From positions 1 through 35,729 of the forward strand of contig JAGPDT010000030.1 in NCBI GenBank assembly GCA_018057455.1: a stretch of DNA of 35,729 bases. The letters are read 5' to 3'. The notes under the pieces were generated by a model. The model had not been told where the DNA came from. It saw only the letters and a program-made list of their open reading frames with translations, and ran no database searches. Of the stretch, positions 2,500 through 35,345 are shown one piece after another; the first letter of the stretch is position 1, and every line of letters starts with the position of its first letter. The stretch comes from Flavobacteriales bacterium. GTDB taxonomy: Bacteria; Bacteroidota; Bacteroidia; Flavobacteriales_F; PHOS-HE28. Both the position numbers and the translations under genes were made by a program.

Positions 2500-3900
2500 T
2501 CACAGGCCGAACATCATGCAGCACCAGTAGGTGATGGCGGCCATCAGGGCGCTCACGGGGATGGTGATGATCCAGGCCCAGAGCAGGCGCACGGTAACGC
2601 CCCAGCGCACGGCGCTGAGCCGCTTGATGGCACCCACGCCAATGATGGAGCCGGTGATCGTATGGGTGGTGCTCACCGGAATGCCCATCTGCTCGGTGAG
2701 GTAGAGGGTCATGGCCCCACCGGTCTCGGCGGAAACGCCCTCGAGGGCGGTGACCTTGGTGATGCGCGTGCCCATGGTCTTGATGATCTTCCAACCGCCG
2801 CTGAGCGTGCCCAGGCCGATCATGGTATAGCAGGCCAGCGGCACCCAATCGGGCATGTCCTTGAAGTCGGTGATGTTGCCGTTGGCGATGAGGGCGGCGG
2901 CAATGATGCCCATGACCTTTTGCGCGTCGTTGCCGCCATGGCCCAGGCTGAAGGCGGCGGAGCTGGCCAGCTGCAGGCGCTTGAACATGCGCGCCATGCT
3001 GAAGGCATTGGGCGTGCGCACCTTCTCCACATAAATGTAGGCGCCGCAGAACAGCGCGAAGAGGAACATGATGCCGTAGCGGATCTTGCTGTTGTCGCCG
3101 TTGCGGATCGCTTGGGCCACCTTGGCCTGGTCGATGTCCGGGGCCACTTCGCCCTGGATCATTTGCGCCACGCCCTTGGAGCCTTTGATGTGGTACATGG
3201 CCAGGTAGGGCACCGCCTCCTCGTAATTCAGCGTTGCCGCATCCAGCTCGGCTTGGAACTCCGGGTGCAGCAAGGCCTTTTCCTCCAAGGCGGGCACGCC
3301 CATGGCCGAGGCCAGGTTGGCCTCCATCTTGCCTTGTTGCAGGTGCACGAAGAGCATCCAGGTGAACACCGCGCTGAGCACCAGCAGGCACACCCGGAAC
3401 CAGGTGTTCTCCACCAAGGTGACCAAGGAAATGAACATGCTCATGAGCATGCCCACCAGCGGGGCCAGGAAGATGAAGGCCACGATCACCAGGATCTTGT
3501 TGCTCTCCACCACATCCCCCACGGTGAGGCCGTTGTAATGCGTGAAGGCATGGGTGAGGGCCGCGCCTGCGAAGCCGCCGATGAGCGTGTGCGAACTGCT
3601 GCTGGGGATGCCGTACCACCAGGTGAGCAGGTTCCAGATGATGGCCGCCACCAGCCCGCTGAAGATCACCGGCAGGGTGATGAACTCCTGGTGCACCACC
3701 TTGCTGATGGTGTTGGCCACCGCATGGTCCTTGAAGATGAAGAACGCCGCGAAGTTGAACATGGCCGCCCACAACACCGCCTGCAGCGGGCTGAGCACCT
3801 TGGTGCTCACCACCGTGGCAATGGAGTTGGCCGCATCATGGAAGCCGTTGATGTAATCGAACACAAGGGCCAGGATGATGATGGCGACCAACAAGCTCAT
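2500..3900 (-). CDS. PiT family inorganic phosphate transporter
   Basis: Low-affinity phosphate permease of the PiT family (ion-coupled), inner membrane, about 466 residues. Both family signatures are visible: GFHDAANSIATVVSTKVLSP near the N-terminus and SLGHGGNDAQKVMGII in the second half. A long hydrophilic stretch in the middle (from FQAELDAATLNYEE to GDNSKIRYG) separates the two membrane halves and explains a length above the roughly 400 residues of compact members. The start MSLLVAIIILALVFDYING at 3900 is preferred to codons 14 residues upstream, which lack family resemblance. The DUF47/PhoU-like gene lies 142 bases upstream on the same strand, the classic partner of PiT permeases, so the pair most likely forms a regulated phosphate uptake unit. 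Confidence 0.95.
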   Translation of the reverse strand: MSLLVAIIILALVFDYINGFHDAANSIATVVSTKVLSPLQAVLWAAMFNFAAFFIFKDHAVANTISKVVHQEFITLPVIFSGLVAAIIWNLLTWWYGIPSSSSHTLIGGFAGAALTHAFTHYNGLTVGDVVESNKILVIVAFIFLAPLVGMLMSMFISLVTLVENTWFRVCLLVLSAVFTWMLFVHLQQGKMEANLASAMGVPALEEKALLHPEFQAELDAATLNYEEAVPYLAMYHIKGSKGVAQMIQGEVAPDIDQAKVAQAIRNGDNSKIRYGIMFLFALFCGAYIYVEKVRTPNAFSMARMFKRLQLASSAAFSLGHGGNDAQKVMGIIAAALIANGNITDFKDMPDWVPLACYTMIGLGTLSGGWKIIKTMGTRITKVTALEGVSAETGGAMTLYLTEQMGIPVSTTHTITGSIIGVGAIKRLSAVRWGVTVRLLWAWIITIPVSALMAAITYWCCMMFGL

Positions 3901-4042
3901 GCGGACCGGTGCGGGTGTTTGGAAGGTCCGGCCCCTGCGCAACAGGGCCAGGTTGAAATGACCAAGGTGGAGGGCGGGGTGGCCATGGTCGTTGGCGGGG
4001 CCTTCACCCCGTGCGCCACTTCACCACGGCTGTTGGCTTGCA

Positions 4043-6251: not shown

Positions 6252-7982
6252 ATGCACGACGGGCTGTACAAGGAACTGGTGCTGGTGCTGGCCTTGGCCG
6301 TGGGCATCATCCTGCTGTTGCGCAAGCTGAAGATGCCCGGCGTGCTGGGCTTCATCCTCGCGGGCATGCTGGCAGGTCCCCACATGCTGGGCTGGGTGGA
6401 TGAAGTGGAAAGGGTGCAGGAACTGGCCGAATTCGGCATGATCTTCCTGCTGTTCGTGATCGGCATGGGCTTCAGCCTCAAGGAGCTCTCCTCCATCGGC
6501 CTCACCGTGTTCGTGGGCGGTTCCTTGCAGGCCGCGCTCACCATCGCCCTTGTCGCCGGGCTGTGCACCTCCTTGGGCATGGCCCTGCCGGCATCCCTCT
6601 TCATGGGCTTCCTGGTCACCCTCAGCAGCACGGCCATCGTGCTGCGCGTGTTGCAGGAACGCGGCAAGCTGGAATCCACCGTGGGCCGGGCCATCTCCGG
6701 CATCCTCATCTTCCAGGACATCCTGGTGGTGCCCATGATGCTGGTGATGCCCATGCTCGCGGGCCGCAGCGGCAACATCGGCGGAGACCTCCTGCGCCTG
6801 GCGGGCAAGGTGGTGCTGCTCCTGGTGCTGATCTACGTGGGCGGGCGCTGGGCGGTGCCGCGGCTGCTGCGCCACGTCTCCATGGGGCGCAACAAGGAAC
6901 TCTTCATCCTCACCGTGGTGCTGCTCTGCTTCGCCGCCGCCTGGGGCACCGCCGCCCTCGGCCTCTCCTTGGCGCTGGGCGCCTTCTTCGCCGGCCTCAT
7001 CATCAGCGGTACCGATCAGGTGCACCACGCCGCGGACATGGTGCAGCCCTTCCACCAACTGTTCATGAGCTTCTTCTTCGTCAGCATCGGCATGCTGGTG
7101 CACCCCGCGCTCTTCACCTCCTCCCCCCTGCTGGTGATCGGCCTGGCGCTGGCGGTGATGCTGGCCAAGACCTTCACCGGTTTCCTCGCCGTGTGGCTGC
7201 TGCGTTACCCCGTGCGCACCGCCCTGCAATGCGGCCTGGCGCTCTTCCAGGTGGGCGAGTTCTCCTTCGTGCTGGCCGCAGCCGGCATCGGCCTGGGCCT
7301 GCTTTCCCAGCAGCAACATCAGCTCTTTCTGGCCGTCTCCATCATCACCATGGCGGCAACGCCCATGGTCATGGCGCGCTCGCGGCGCATCGCCGGGGGC
7401 ACGTTCAACCGGCTGCTTCCCCGCACGGGCAAGGTGCTCGATGCATTGCTCAACGTGGGCTCGCCGCCGGAAGAAGCCGTTCATCAACTGCTCAAGGACC
7501 ATGTGGTGATCATCGGCTTCGGCCTGGCCGGCCAACAAGTGGCCTGGGCGGCGCAAAGCAGGAAGGTGCGCTGCGTGGTGGTGGAGGAAGATCCCGAACT
7601 CGCCGAACGGGCGGTGCAGCGCGGTATGCGCACCATCCAAGGCAGCGCTTACCAGGGATCGGTTCTGGAGGAGGCCCATGTGGCCACCGCGCGAGTGGTG
7701 GTGGTCGCCCTCAGCGATGGCCACCTGGCCAAGCGCGTGGTGGCTGCACTGGAAACTGCCACCAAGGCACGCCTAATGGTACGGTCACGGTTCGCCGCGG
7801 ATGCGGGCGCCCTCCATGCAAAGGGTGCAGACGAGGTGGTCTCCGAAGACCTGGAAAGCGCGCTGCAACTGGTGGAGCACGTGTTGCGCCGCTACCACGC
7901 CCCTGCGGCCGGCATCCGCGAGGTCACCGGGTACCTCCGCAGCGTGCAGGAGAGCACCGCCGCCAGCGCCCATGTCGCCTAA
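6252..7982 (+). CDS. CPA2 family cation/proton antiporter with RCK (TrkA-N) domain
   Basis: A 576-residue KefB/KefC-like monovalent cation:proton antiporter in the inner membrane. Residues about 5-375 hold a dozen hydrophobic segments of the Na_H_Exchanger fold, with family-typical stretches such as TLSSTAIVLRVLQE, SGILIFQDILVVP and LSLALGAFFAGLIISGTD. From about residue 417 a Rossmann domain starts: DHVVIIGFGLAGQQVA carries the GxGxxG nucleotide-binding loop, and it runs to about residue 545. There is no obvious extra C-terminal RCK-C domain, and the tail is short. Such proteins export potassium or sodium in exchange for protons, gated by ligand binding to the RCK domain. It follows the DUF486 gene by one base. 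Confidence 0.94.
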   Translation: MHDGLYKELVLVLALAVGIILLLRKLKMPGVLGFILAGMLAGPHMLGWVDEVERVQELAEFGMIFLLFVIGMGFSLKELSSIGLTVFVGGSLQAALTIALVAGLCTSLGMALPASLFMGFLVTLSSTAIVLRVLQERGKLESTVGRAISGILIFQDILVVPMMLVMPMLAGRSGNIGGDLLRLAGKVVLLLVLIYVGGRWAVPRLLRHVSMGRNKELFILTVVLLCFAAAWGTAALGLSLALGAFFAGLIISGTDQVHHAADMVQPFHQLFMSFFFVSIGMLVHPALFTSSPLLVIGLALAVMLAKTFTGFLAVWLLRYPVRTALQCGLALFQVGEFSFVLAAAGIGLGLLSQQQHQLFLAVSIITMAATPMVMARSRRIAGGTFNRLLPRTGKVLDALLNVGSPPEEAVHQLLKDHVVIIGFGLAGQQVAWAAQSRKVRCVVVEEDPELAERAVQRGMRTIQGSAYQGSVLEEAHVATARVVVVALSDGHLAKRVVAALETATKARLMVRSRFAADAGALHAKGADEVVSEDLESALQLVEHVLRRYHAPAAGIREVTGYLRSVQESTAASAHVA

Positions 7983-16155: not shown

Positions 16156-16719
16156 TCAGGCTTCCGCCTTGCGCTCGCGTTTGAGGGCCACCCCGAACTG
16201 CTGGGCCAGGGCCCGTGCTTCCGCATCGGTGAGGCCGCGGCCGAAGGCCACTTTCCTGCCTTGGTATTCAAAGCCCAGTTGTTCCGCGCCACGCGTCCAG
16301 AACGAGGCGCTCAGTTGCCACTTCCAGCTGTCCTTGTCGATGTTCAGCGGGCCGAACCGCTGGATGTTGGCCACAAAGTACCGGTTGGCCTTGCCGAAGC
16401 CGAAGAGGCTGTCCTTCACGGTGAGTTCGCCCTCCTTCAGCCGCCAGAGTTCGAACCCCTTGGTGCGCCAGAGCACCACACGCAGGATGCGTGCCTGGAA
16501 GTAGGCCCAGAACACCAGCATGACCACCAGCGGAACGCGAAGCTCCGGGTCCGTCCCGGTCACGAGTTCATGGAGGAAAGCGGCACCGCAGAGCAACCAG
16601 GCCACCAGCCAGCCGATGAGCATGTACAGCTGGCCATTGGGCAGCCTGTTGCCGATCACCACGCTCATGCCTCCATCGGCCGGGCGCTCAATGCTTACGC
16701 GATCACTGATGAACTCCAT
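16156..16719 (-). CDS. Membrane protein with PH-like C-terminal domain, unknown function
   Basis: A 187-residue protein. Two hydrophobic segments (near residues 32-52, LYMLIGWLVAWLLCGAAFLHE, and 64-84) form a hairpin; the rest is soluble and beta-rich with the pattern of bacterial PH-like domains (GFELWRLKEGELTVKDSLFGFGKANRYF, then a C-terminal helix LTDAEARALAQQFGVAL). No enzyme motif is seen. It overlaps the end of bshA by 17 bases on the same strand, so it is translated from the same message. I do not know its function. Confidence 0.78.
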   Translation of the reverse strand: MEFISDRVSIERPADGGMSVVIGNRLPNGQLYMLIGWLVAWLLCGAAFLHELVTGTDPELRVPLVVMLVFWAYFQARILRVVLWRTKGFELWRLKEGELTVKDSLFGFGKANRYFVANIQRFGPLNIDKDSWKWQLSASFWTRGAEQLGFEYQGRKVAFGRGLTDAEARALAQQFGVALKRERKAEA

Positions 16720-30817: not shown

Positions 30818-32710
30818 TCAGCCCTCCATGTCGTCCATGTCATCCATGTCCTCATGGCGGCGGGTCTTGCCCTTGGGCTTGCCCTGGCGCTCCTTGTTCT
30901 CCATGGCGCTCTTGAGGTCGCTGAGCACACCGAGGTCGCCGAGGGTGGACTTCTCCACTTTCTCATTGATGCTGCGGATGCTGGGGCTCTGGCCACCACC
31001 GTGCTCCTCGCCGGTCTTGCGTCCGCGCTTGGCGGCAGCGGGTACGTGCTCCAGGGTCTCGTCACCCTCCTCGAAGGTACGGGTGTGGCTGAGCACGATG
31101 CGACGGGCCTCGGAGTTGAACTCCAGCACCATGAACGGCAGCTTGTCCTCCAGGGCGGCCTTGCTGTTGTCCTGCTTGCGCAAGTGCTTAAGGGCCACCG
31201 AGCCTTCCACGCCGTAGGGCAGGGCCACGGTGAAGGTGTTGCCGGCACGGCCCACCAAGGTGCCCTCGTGCACGCTGCCTTCCTTGAAGGTATCGGCGAA
31301 GACCTCCCAGGGGTTCTCCTCCACTTGTTTGTGGCCCAGGCTCAAGCGGCGGTTCTCCTTGTCCACTTCGAGGACCTGTACGTCCAGTTCGTCACCGATC
31401 TTGCAGAAGTCGCTGGGGTGCTTCACGCGCTTGGTCCAGCTCAGGTCGCTGATGTGCACCAGGCCGTCCACGCCTTCTTCGAGCTCGGCGAAGATGCCGA
31501 AGTGGGTGAAGTTGCGCACTTTGGCGGTGTGGCGCGAGTTCACCGGGTACTTGAACTCGATGTCCTCCCAGGGATCGGCCGAGAGCTGCTTCATGCCCAG
31601 GCTCATCTTGCGCTCTTCGCGGTCGATGTTCAGGATCTGCACGTCCACCTCCTGGCCTTCCTTGAGGAATTCCTTGGGGCTGCGCAGGTGCTGGCTCCAG
31701 CTCATTTCGCTCACGTGGAGCAAGCCTTCCACGCCGGGGGCCACCTCCACGAAGGCGCCGTAGTCGGTGATCACCATCACCTTGCCTTTGACTTTGTCGC
31801 CCGCCTGCATGCCTTCGCTCAGGGAATCCCATGGGTGGGCGCTGAGCTGCTTGAGGCCGAGGGCGATGCGGCGCTTCTCGTCGTCGAAATCCAGGATCAC
31901 CACGTTGATCTTCTCGTCGAGCTTCACCACCTCCTCGGGGTGGTTCACACGGCCATAGCTCAGGTCGGTGATGTGGACCAGGCCGTCCACACCGCCGAGG
32001 TCCACGAACACGCCGTAGCTGGTGATGTTCTTCACGGTGCCCTCCAGCACCTGGCCTTTCTCCAGGCCGCTGATGATCTGCTTCTTCTGGGCTTCGATCT
32101 CGGCTTCGATCAGGGCTTTGTGCGAGACCACCACGTTCTTGAACTCTTGGTTGATCTTCACCACTTTGAACTCCATGTTCTTGCCCACGTACTGGTCGTA
32201 GTCGCGGATGGGCTTCACATCGATCTGGCTGCCGGGCAGGAACGCCTCGATGCCGAACACGTCCACGATCAGGCCGCCTTTGGTGCGGCACTTCACGTAG
32301 CCCGTGATGATCTCATTGCCCTCCATGGCGTTGTTCACCTTGCCCCAGGCATTGTGCACGCGCGCCGTTTTGTGGGAGATGATCATCTGGCCGGACTTGT
32401 CCTCCTGCTTCTCGATGTACACCTCCACCTTGTCCCCGATGGTGAGGTCGGGCTTGTAGCGGAATTCGCTCAAGGGCACCACCCCTTCGGACTTGTAGCC
32501 GATGTTGATCACCGCCTCCTTCTTGTTCAAGCCCACCACGGTGCCCATGAGCACTTCCTTCTCGGAGATGCTGCTGAGGGTGTGTTCATAGGCTTGTTCC
32601 ATCTTCTCGCGCTGGGCGGAAGTGGCGGGTTGGGTGCCTTCCAAGGCATCCCAATCAAAATCGGCCGCGGGTTCGGCGAATTTCACCTGGTTGTTCTCTA
32701 CTGATGACAT
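30818..32710 (-). CDS. rpsA: 30S ribosomal protein S1
   Basis: A 630-residue protein with six S1 (OB-fold) repeats, binding mRNA on the small subunit. Repeats begin near EVLMGTVVGLNKKEAVINIG, NEIITGYVKCRTKGGLIVDV, GQVLEGTVKNITSYGVFVDL, GDKVKGKVMVITDYGAFVEV, RHTAKVRNFTHFGIFAELEE and GSVHEGTLVGRAGNTFTVAL. The central four carry the typical G.FV.L..GVDGLVHISDLSW pattern. The C-terminus is a charged tail ending in a DMDDMDDMEG repeat, longer than in E. coli S1. The start at 32710 gives MSSVENNQVKFAEP; an exact -7 element lies 101 bases upstream, leaving a leader near 95 bases in which autoregulation is possible. Confidence 0.96.
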   Translation of the reverse strand: MSSVENNQVKFAEPAADFDWDALEGTQPATSAQREKMEQAYEHTLSSISEKEVLMGTVVGLNKKEAVINIGYKSEGVVPLSEFRYKPDLTIGDKVEVYIEKQEDKSGQMIISHKTARVHNAWGKVNNAMEGNEIITGYVKCRTKGGLIVDVFGIEAFLPGSQIDVKPIRDYDQYVGKNMEFKVVKINQEFKNVVVSHKALIEAEIEAQKKQIISGLEKGQVLEGTVKNITSYGVFVDLGGVDGLVHITDLSYGRVNHPEEVVKLDEKINVVILDFDDEKRRIALGLKQLSAHPWDSLSEGMQAGDKVKGKVMVITDYGAFVEVAPGVEGLLHVSEMSWSQHLRSPKEFLKEGQEVDVQILNIDREERKMSLGMKQLSADPWEDIEFKYPVNSRHTAKVRNFTHFGIFAELEEGVDGLVHISDLSWTKRVKHPSDFCKIGDELDVQVLEVDKENRRLSLGHKQVEENPWEVFADTFKEGSVHEGTLVGRAGNTFTVALPYGVEGSVALKHLRKQDNSKAALEDKLPFMVLEFNSEARRIVLSHTRTFEEGDETLEHVPAAAKRGRKTGEEHGGGQSPSIRSINEKVEKSTLGDLGVLSDLKSAMENKERQGKPKGKTRRHEDMDDMDDMEG

Positions 32711-32956: not shown

Positions 32957-34036
32957 ATGCGCCGCGTCCATTCGCTTGTTTTCACGCTTGCCATGGGCGT
33001 GCTCCCCTGCTTGGCCGTGGCTGGGGAGGGTTCCCCCGCCGGTGCCTCCCTGCAGGTTGGCGTGGCCGGCACGGCACCGTTCCTGAACCAAGGGCGTTCA
33101 GGCATTTCCATGGACCTTTGGAACCAGGCCGCAACCGAGCTTGGCTGGACTTTTACCACACGCACGTACCCGTCGGTGCCCGATGCCTTGGACGCCTTGG
33201 CGGCCGGCCAGCTCGATGCCGTGGTGGGGCCGGTCACCATCAGTTCCGCCCGTGCGGCCCGCTTCGGCCTCACACAGCCCTACTTCCGCTCCAGCCTTTC
33301 CATTCTCTCCCGCCAGGATGAGCTGGACCAGCTGGAACGGATCAAACCGTTCTTCAGCCAACGGCTGGCCTACGCCACCAGCGTTTTCCTGCTCATCCTG
33401 GCCGCGGTGGGCGCCTTGTTGTGGCTGGCCGAGCGCAAATACAACGAGCAGTTCCCGCCGGAGCCCGCCCGTGGCATCGCCAACGGCATGTAGTGCGCCA
33501 TAGCGACCATGACCACCACCGGTTATGGCGACGTGGCCCCGAAAACCTTCATGGGCCGCCTGATCGCTGGCGGCTGGATGGTGATCTCCCTGCTTTTTGC
33601 CACCTCCATGGTGGCGGGCATTGCAAGCACCCTTACGCTCACGGGCATGAACCGGTCCGTGGTGCGCTCCGCCGATCAATTCCCCGGCAAACGGGTGGCG
33701 GTGCAGGAGGGGTCCAATGCTGCGGAATTCGTCCTGGAACACGGTGGAACGCCCGTGGCCTTGGCCAACTTGGATTCGTGCTATGCGGCACTCAAGCGCC
33801 GTAAAGTGGACGCCGTACTGTTCGACCGGCCCCAACTGCTCTATTTCCACCAAGCGGAACGGCACGACGACATCGCCGTTTCCAGCGAGCACTACCAGCC
33901 GCAAGAGTATGGTTTCGCCTTTCGCACCGGCTCTTCATTCCTGCCCCGCATGGATGTGGTGCTGCTGCGCATGAAAGAGGATGGTGAGGTGGACAAGGTC
34001 CTCAAGGACTGGTTGGGCCCCATGGGGATCAAGTAG
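32957..34036 (+). pseudogene. GluR0-like ligand-gated K+ channel with in-frame amber codon in the pore
   Basis: A frame of 360 codons interrupted by one TAG at 33491-33493 (codon 179). Layout: signal peptide (1-23), first half of a type 3 solute-binding domain (about 30-120: LQVGVAGTAPFL, AARFGLTQPYFRSSL), membrane helix M1 (TSVFLLILAAVGALLWLAER), pore loop with potassium filter TTTGYGD (codons 186-192), helix M2 (GGWMVISLLFATSMVAGIAS), then the second half of the binding domain to the end. This is the prokaryotic glutamate-receptor (GluR0) architecture. The stop replaces the aromatic residue normally preceding the filter helix; TGG to TAG is a single change. The flanking frame is intact, so it is a very recent lesion, a sequencing error, or a suppressed codon. 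TACTTTTA at 32881 may be a promoter element. Confidence 0.85.
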
Positions 34037-34105
34037 GGCGCCGCCTGCGCGGATCACCATCTTTGCCCCGGCCGTGCCACCGTGCACCATGAACAGCCCA
34101 TGCAC

Positions 34106-34969
34106 ATGAACCTTTACACGATCGATACCGGATACTTCAAGCTGGACGGCGGCGCCATGTTCGGCGTGGTGCCCAAGGCGCTCTGGAGCAAGAAGCACCC
34201 TTCGGATGGGAACAACCTATGCACTTGGGCCATGCGGTGCCTGCTGGTGGAAACTGGCGGCCACCTGGTGCTCATCGACAACGGCATCGGTGACAAGCAG
34301 GACGCGAAATTCTTCAGCCACTACGATTTGCATGGCGACGAAACCTTGGCGGGATCTTTGAAAGCGCACGGCTTCACCCCCGATGACATCACCGATGTGT
34401 TCCTCACCCACCTGCACTTCGACCATTGCGGGGGAAGCATCCGGCGCGAGGGGGACAAGCTGGTGCCCGCCTTCCGCAATGCCCACTACTGGAGCAACCG
34501 CTTCCATTGGGCATGGGCCACCAAGCCCAACCCGCGGGAGAAAGCCAGTTTTCTCAGCGAGAACATCCTGCCGATCCAGGAAAGCGGCCGGTTGCGATTC
34601 GTGGAGGCCGAGCGCCAACAGGATACGGACACACCGTACGTGAAGGCGTTGTTCCCCGGCTTCGATGTGCTGATGGTCAACGGCCACACGGACGCCATGA
34701 TGATCCCCCACATCGCTTACAAAGGCCGCACCTTGGTGTACCTGGCGGACCTGGTGCCCAGCGCCCACCACATCCCTGTGCCCTGGGTGATCAGCTATGA
34801 TACGCGCCCACTGCTGAGCATGCAGGAGAAGGCGCCGGTACTGGAGGCCGCGGCGGACAACGGTTCGATCCTCTTCTTTGAGCACGACGCCGTGAGCGAG
34901 TGCGGCTTGGTGGAGCGTACCGAAAAGGGGGTCCGGTTGAAGGAGACCATGCCATTGAGCGATTGGTAA
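34106..34969 (+). CDS. MBL-fold metallo-hydrolase
   Basis: A 287-residue metallo-beta-lactamase-fold hydrolase. The dinuclear metal motif is TDVFLTHLHFDHCGGSIRR; further ligands are expected in MVNGHTDAMMIPHI and in VYLADLVPSAHHIP. MNLYTIDTGYFKLDGGAMFGVVPKALW and RCLLVETGGHLVLIDNGIG are typical of a group of cytoplasmic hydrolases of unknown substrate, some annotated lactonase-like. The start at 34106 fits this N-terminus; an ATG at 34100 adds two residues. CATCTTTG at 34058-34065 is a one-mismatch -7-like sequence. It converges with the Rieske gene, 13 bases apart. Confidence 0.9.
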   Translation: MNLYTIDTGYFKLDGGAMFGVVPKALWSKKHPSDGNNLCTWAMRCLLVETGGHLVLIDNGIGDKQDAKFFSHYDLHGDETLAGSLKAHGFTPDDITDVFLTHLHFDHCGGSIRREGDKLVPAFRNAHYWSNRFHWAWATKPNPREKASFLSENILPIQESGRLRFVEAERQQDTDTPYVKALFPGFDVLMVNGHTDAMMIPHIAYKGRTLVYLADLVPSAHHIPVPWVISYDTRPLLSMQEKAPVLEAAADNGSILFFEHDAVSECGLVERTEKGVRLKETMPLSDW

Positions 34970-34982
34970 GCCCGGCTGGCCG

Positions 34983-35345
34983 CTACCAAAGCTCCGTTCC
35001 GAACAGCTTGATGGTGGTGTAGGCGAAACCGATGTAGACCCCGTCGGCGCGTTCTTCCACAGGGAACACCTCTGCCGCGTCCGCGCCGCCGCCACGGCCT
35101 TGCCCGGTGCGCACATCGAAGCCCATGCGGTGTTTGGGGCACACCAGGAAGCCGCCTTCACACCAACCGCCGGCCAAGCTGCTGCCTTGGTGCGGGCAGC
35201 GGTCCAGCAGTGCATGCAATGTTCCGTTGTGGCGCACCAAGCAGATCGCTTTTCCGCCCACGTGCACGCGCATAGGCTTATGATCGGGCAAGGTGGCCGG
35301 GTTCCCTTCCTCCACTCGCCGCCAGCGGATTCCTTCCGTGATCAT
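34983..35345 (-). CDS. Rieske [2Fe-2S] ferredoxin-like protein
   Basis: A 120-residue stand-alone Rieske protein. Cluster ligands are C-x-H in DRCPHQGSSLAGG and C-x-x-H in FLVCPKHRMGFDVRTG. It lacks a signal peptide or membrane anchor, so it is a soluble electron carrier of the small ferredoxin type, as in NirD-like or dioxygenase systems, though no oxygenase gene is nearby. Its ATG (35345-35343) shares one base with the stop of the upstream gene (TGATG), so the two are probably co-translated. Confidence 0.92.
   Translation of the reverse strand: MITEGIRWRRVEEGNPATLPDHKPMRVHVGGKAICLVRHNGTLHALLDRCPHQGSSLAGGWCEGGFLVCPKHRMGFDVRTGQGRGGGADAAEVFPVEERADGVYIGFAYTTIKLFGTELW

Follow-up and report, generated by a model that had tools for sequence, protein, structure and literature searches.

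A single amber codon in the pore helix of a GluR0-type potassium channel gene of a Flavobacteriales bacterium, probably a recent nonsense mutation

A frame of 360 codons in the draft genome of a Flavobacteriales bacterium (assembly GCA_018057455.1, contig JAGPDT010000030.1) can be read as a ligand-gated potassium channel with a TAG codon inside its pore, which raises the question of whether the gene has been inactivated, whether the base is wrong, or whether the codon is read through. The window analyzed here is a stretch of 35,729 nucleotides, and the features discussed below are collected in Table 1.

Table 1. Position of the interrupted channel gene, its parts and its neighbors in the window.
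Feature	Coordinates	Strand	Evidence
GluR0-like (Group 1 prokaryotic iGluR) channel frame with one TAG inside	32957..34036	+	Translation, Pfam, orthologue alignment, PDB sequence matches, fold search
Pre-stop piece, 178 aa: hydrophobic N-terminus (probable signal), S1 lobe, TM1, start of pore helix	32957..33490	+	
In-frame TAG at residue 179, where all orthologues have the pore-helix Trp	33491..33493	+	
Post-stop piece: remaining P-loop with TTGYGD filter, TM2, S2 lobe; terminator TAG	33494..34036	+	
Metallo-beta-lactamase (MBL)-fold protein, syntenic neighbor	34082..34969	+	Pfam Lactamase_B; synteny
Rieske protein, syntenic neighbor; terminator TAG	34983..35345	-	Pfam Rieske; synteny
Ribosomal protein S1-like gene (rpsA), divergent neighbor; ORF open to 32788	30818..32704	-	Pfam S1, five stretches

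Translation and Pfam agree with the earlier note that a GluR0-like architecture is readable in one frame, the TAG at 33491-33493 being in frame with both the ATG at 32957 and the terminal TAG at 34034-34036. It is the sole internal stop; the codons on both sides are intact with no further lesion, as had also been claimed, and coding scores are high directly either side of it. Ahead of the stop the translation matches SBP_bac_3 (E = 2.7e-12), and beyond it Ion_trans_2 (E = 4.6e-08). With the stop read through, a single protein matches SBP_bac_3 from residue 33 to 354 (E = 5.8e-17), and the Ion_trans_2 and Lig_chan matches fall within that span. The frame thus displays the ligand domain of SBP_bac_3 type split by a pore that marks the Group 1 channels, and its filter (MTTTGYGD) carries the K+-type T-x-GYG(D) feature. 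Two predicted membrane helices enclose the P-loop and there is no C-terminal M4, the frame ending right after S2. What this copy lacks among the Group 1 features is an intact reading frame, as TAG occupies codon 179. A predicted structure of the channel (pLDDT 77, pTM 0.60) places helices at residues 135-159, 174-187, and 198-229, with moderate confidence in the pore region, and a fold search with it matched AMPA receptors over the LBD-TMD part and the GluR0 core as well.

By sequence, the closest solved structures are ligand cores, those of GluR0 (Synechocystis Slr1257) and its Nostoc homologue (PDB 1ii5, 1iit, 2pyy), with E-values between 6e-25 and 3.9e-22, the best in the PDB, and with two-stretch matches to GluR0; 1ii5 is also among the top fold matches of the predicted structure (TM-score 0.84 over the target). 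The likeness lies in the order S1-TM1-P-loop-TM2-S2 and in the K+-type filter. In contrast to these proteins, the frame here is broken by TAG, and its filter reads TTGYGD rather than the usual TVGYGD. In the description by Ger et al. 2010 (PMC2950845), Group 1 prokaryotic glutamate receptor channels have one ligand lobe on either side of a pore made of two TMs and a P-loop, whose selectivity filter is K+-like; the present copy shares this plan, although broken.

Comparison with whole genomes of relatives gave seven orthologues, and every one of them (7/7) has TGG at the position of the stop; the orthologue in genome G038 is more distant. Including the source genome, the gene is present in 7 of the 45 genomes of the genus, and it is interrupted in the source genome only. 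In a wider set of 80 homologues from GTDB genomes, which span several bacterial phyla as well as some archaea, 78 carry Trp in this column, a count that leans slightly to Trp since this residue was part of one of the two search patterns, though the filter pattern alone also retrieves homologues. The 80 homologues came from a search with the orthologue alignment, and one of them (L199) is probably the same gene as the copy in genome G013; a search of the genome contigs with the single channel protein as query gave no match, nor did an exact-pattern scan of viral contigs for the stop site. As to the two exceptions, one has the codon TAT and the other (L207, Cyclobacterium qasimii M12-11B, 3001-3980) is frameshifted and read out of register, its true frame giving GMW. 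The latter homologue has a single frameshift within TM1, which may be an independent lesion or a sequencing error. Filters in this set are TVGYGD (73) and TTGYGD (6). We take the position, by comparison with KcsA, to be that of the leading Trp in the pore-helix pair of K+ channels; the pair is WW in most of the 80 homologues and WC here, the TAG column being the first Trp. The statement that this place is usually tryptophan, one base from TAG, therefore holds. A conserved stop in relatives, as expected of a recoded gene, is absent, and a disabling lesion missing from the orthologues, as in a nonsense pseudogene, is present. With every other copy in the genus uninterrupted, the stop belongs to the source genome only and does not mark a conserved recoding site. 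Further lesions in relatives, which the earlier note had proposed as a counter-test, were not seen in the other in-genus copies, all of which are intact.

The order of channel, MBL-fold, and Rieske genes is kept in four sister species (G020, G032, G013, and G023), and rpsA adjoins the channel in G020 and G013. This conserved order indicates that this part of the genus has long had the channel and did not acquire it recently. The three genes lie side by side (32957-35345 in the window) in at least four sister species, yet the channel is found in so few genomes of the genus.

We used a codon model of the seven in-genus genes to ask how long the copy may have been without constraint. Omega on its own branch was 0.052 compared to 0.056 in the background, and omega of 1 on this branch was rejected by 10.5 lnL units. 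Allowing the final 2% or 5% of the branch to be neutral costs 1.4 and 3.3 lnL, respectively, giving a bound of about 3% at most, which is rough as synonymous sites on the branch are near saturation. The likelihood from the post-stop half alone is flat, this half being too short to date the stop by itself; its amino acid identity to the nearest orthologue (G020) is 77%, compared to 71% for the 5′ half. Neither the relaxed selection nor the additional lesions of a typical pseudogene were found. The strong constraint together with the bound of about 3% indicates that any inactivation was very recent, and the copy, if it is a pseudogene, would from its sequence be a very young one.

These findings are best explained by very recent inactivation, probably through one nonsense substitution and in this species or strain only, of a vertically inherited GluR0-type K+ channel gene. 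The substitution would have hit the pore-helix Trp codon, one base from TGG, and RF1 would end translation at UAG. The resulting product of 178 residues would end within the pore helix, retaining the signal segment, one lobe of the ligand domain, and TM1 but not the filter, TM2, or the other lobe. It should be able neither to enclose a ligand in clamshell fashion nor to form a pore, so that the sequenced genotype most likely lacks a functional channel. A restart at ATG 33509 would supply filter, TM2, and S2 only and hence no channel. Synechocystis GluR0 without its soluble domains is an inactive construct, these domains being needed for K+ uptake activity (PMC13099474), and by analogy loss of function would be expected here. 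We infer a real base and a product without function, and also that the organism tolerates the loss, the gene being dispensable, as its presence in only 7 of 45 genus genomes suggests. What counts against inactivation is that the gene, apart from its TAG, shows no sign of decay. The undecayed post-stop half also speaks against the idea that selection maintains the truncated product as a half-receptor anchored in the membrane. Such a product would keep the signal segment, the S1 lobe, and TM1, but both lobes are needed for the ligand clamshell and no comparably short form is encoded by any of the relatives found, and we regard this idea as scarcely credible.

Whether UAG could be decoded as an amino acid in this organism was assessed at the level of the genome. 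RF1 is present (480 bits). No CUA anticodon was found among 37 tRNAs of the draft, which include one ordinary tRNA-Trp (CCA), a negative that is not absolute as Asp and Ile-GAT tRNAs are also missing from the 37; the search for an amber-suppressor tRNA suggested in the earlier note was thus run and found none. The PylS model scored 19.9 bits against a cut-off of 178, and similarly weak matches were obtained in 13 of 14 control genomes, which gives no support to pyrrolysine. In a stop-codon survey covering 1.75 of the 3.31 Mb, 1365 sampled coding ORFs ended in TGA (927), TAG (275), or TAA (163), and a coding-like frame followed the stop in 34 (3.7%), 11 (4.0%), and 10 (6.1%) of these, respectively. 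By eye these continuations are mostly ordinary same-frame neighbors, and their similar shares point to no TAG-specific effect. TAG is also the terminator of the channel gene itself and of a neighboring SUI1 gene. Of the nearby genes said to end in TAG, Rieske does so, but the one called DUF486 is probably a DUF488 gene and ends in TAA. Together, RF1, the lack of a CUA tRNA, the low PylS score, and the use of TAG as terminator lead us to reject genome-wide amber reassignment, in agreement with the earlier note, and none of the recoding features sought in the genome (suppressor tRNA, pyrrolysine system, or missing RF1) was found.

Without reassignment, UAG might still be read often enough by a near-cognate tRNA, perhaps aided by a stem-loop, to yield some full-length channel. 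An RNA hairpin can form just 3′ of the TAG (33494-33573; -36.7 kcal/mol, shuffle z -3.5). It was considered as a recoding signal and rejected, as it is stable but not unusual enough for the genome, 4.4% of ordinary ORF windows folding as well or better, and it is not common to the orthologues with TGG. The protein-level constraint across the entire gene and the strength of this possible hairpin would suit such readthrough. Against it stand the RF1 and tRNA results, the restriction of the stop to one genome, the double use of TAG as interruption and terminator in the same gene, and the ordinary rank of the hairpin and its absence from orthologues. The base after the TAG is U, and U after a stop codon favors termination in bacteria. 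In-frame stops in constrained bacterial genes have been reported to be frequent and often short-lived, and stops that allow some readthrough have been argued to be widespread in bacteria (Belinky et al. 2021, PMC7918605). The channel gene resembles these cases in having one in-frame stop and being under purifying selection, but that study relied on stops at one position in at least 2 species, whereas the present TAG occurs in a single genome, which fits its short-lived class. We consider readthrough yielding some full-length channel very unlikely, and find it harder still to accept that a real and fixed UAG is read at a low level with help from the hairpin, giving few channels and many half-receptors. 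The readthrough option of the earlier note thus found no support, the stop being private and the 1.75 Mb surveyed carrying no signature of TAG readthrough. If it were read through, the gene would encode an amber-controlled K+ channel. To our knowledge no such channel has been known before, and the findings give no pointer in that direction.

Other interrupted frames were seen in the same assembly. A conserved outer-membrane-like gene (C69:6771-7544, minus strand) has a single TAA at 7191; it has long matches in 12 other genus genomes, and the codon is Tyr in the three aligned, one of which (G067) has a different interruption, a TAG close to where the gene begins. An orphan coding-like frame (C35:16096-16491) contains one in-frame TAG at 16255; none of 57 relatives has a homologue of it and Pfam gave no match, so that its standing as a second amber-interrupted gene is doubtful. 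A TGA at C7:13837 was set aside, as there is no Pfam match and by eye it probably separates two small adjoining genes. Single stops of more than one kind thus interrupt genes here and there in the assembly, a pattern that either gene decay or base errors would produce.

The main rival to a recent nonsense mutation is that the TAG arose as an error of consensus or assembly, or reflects a minority strain in the draft, the true gene being intact. The stop is one substitution from an invariant codon in a gene otherwise fully constrained, the draft consists of 130 contigs, the channel gene lying about 1.7 kb short of one contig's end, and 1.75 Mb yielded at least one more conserved gene with a lone stop, as sporadic errors would also produce. 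On the other hand, the assembly is 99.4% complete with 0.15% contamination, and substitution errors in consensus sequence are normally rare. We consider this rival possible but clearly the less likely account. Both very recent inactivation and a wrong base, as the earlier note had offered them, fit the evidence; the inactivation is read from the consensus base in one genome of the species, and a real nonsense mutation is favored over a consensus error.

The channel family is already known and the lesion is an ordinary one. For annotation, an automatic pipeline would call a pseudogene or a pair of fragments at a place where the sister species carry a GluR0-type channel. A real stop would mean that a channel of patchy distribution was lost very recently.
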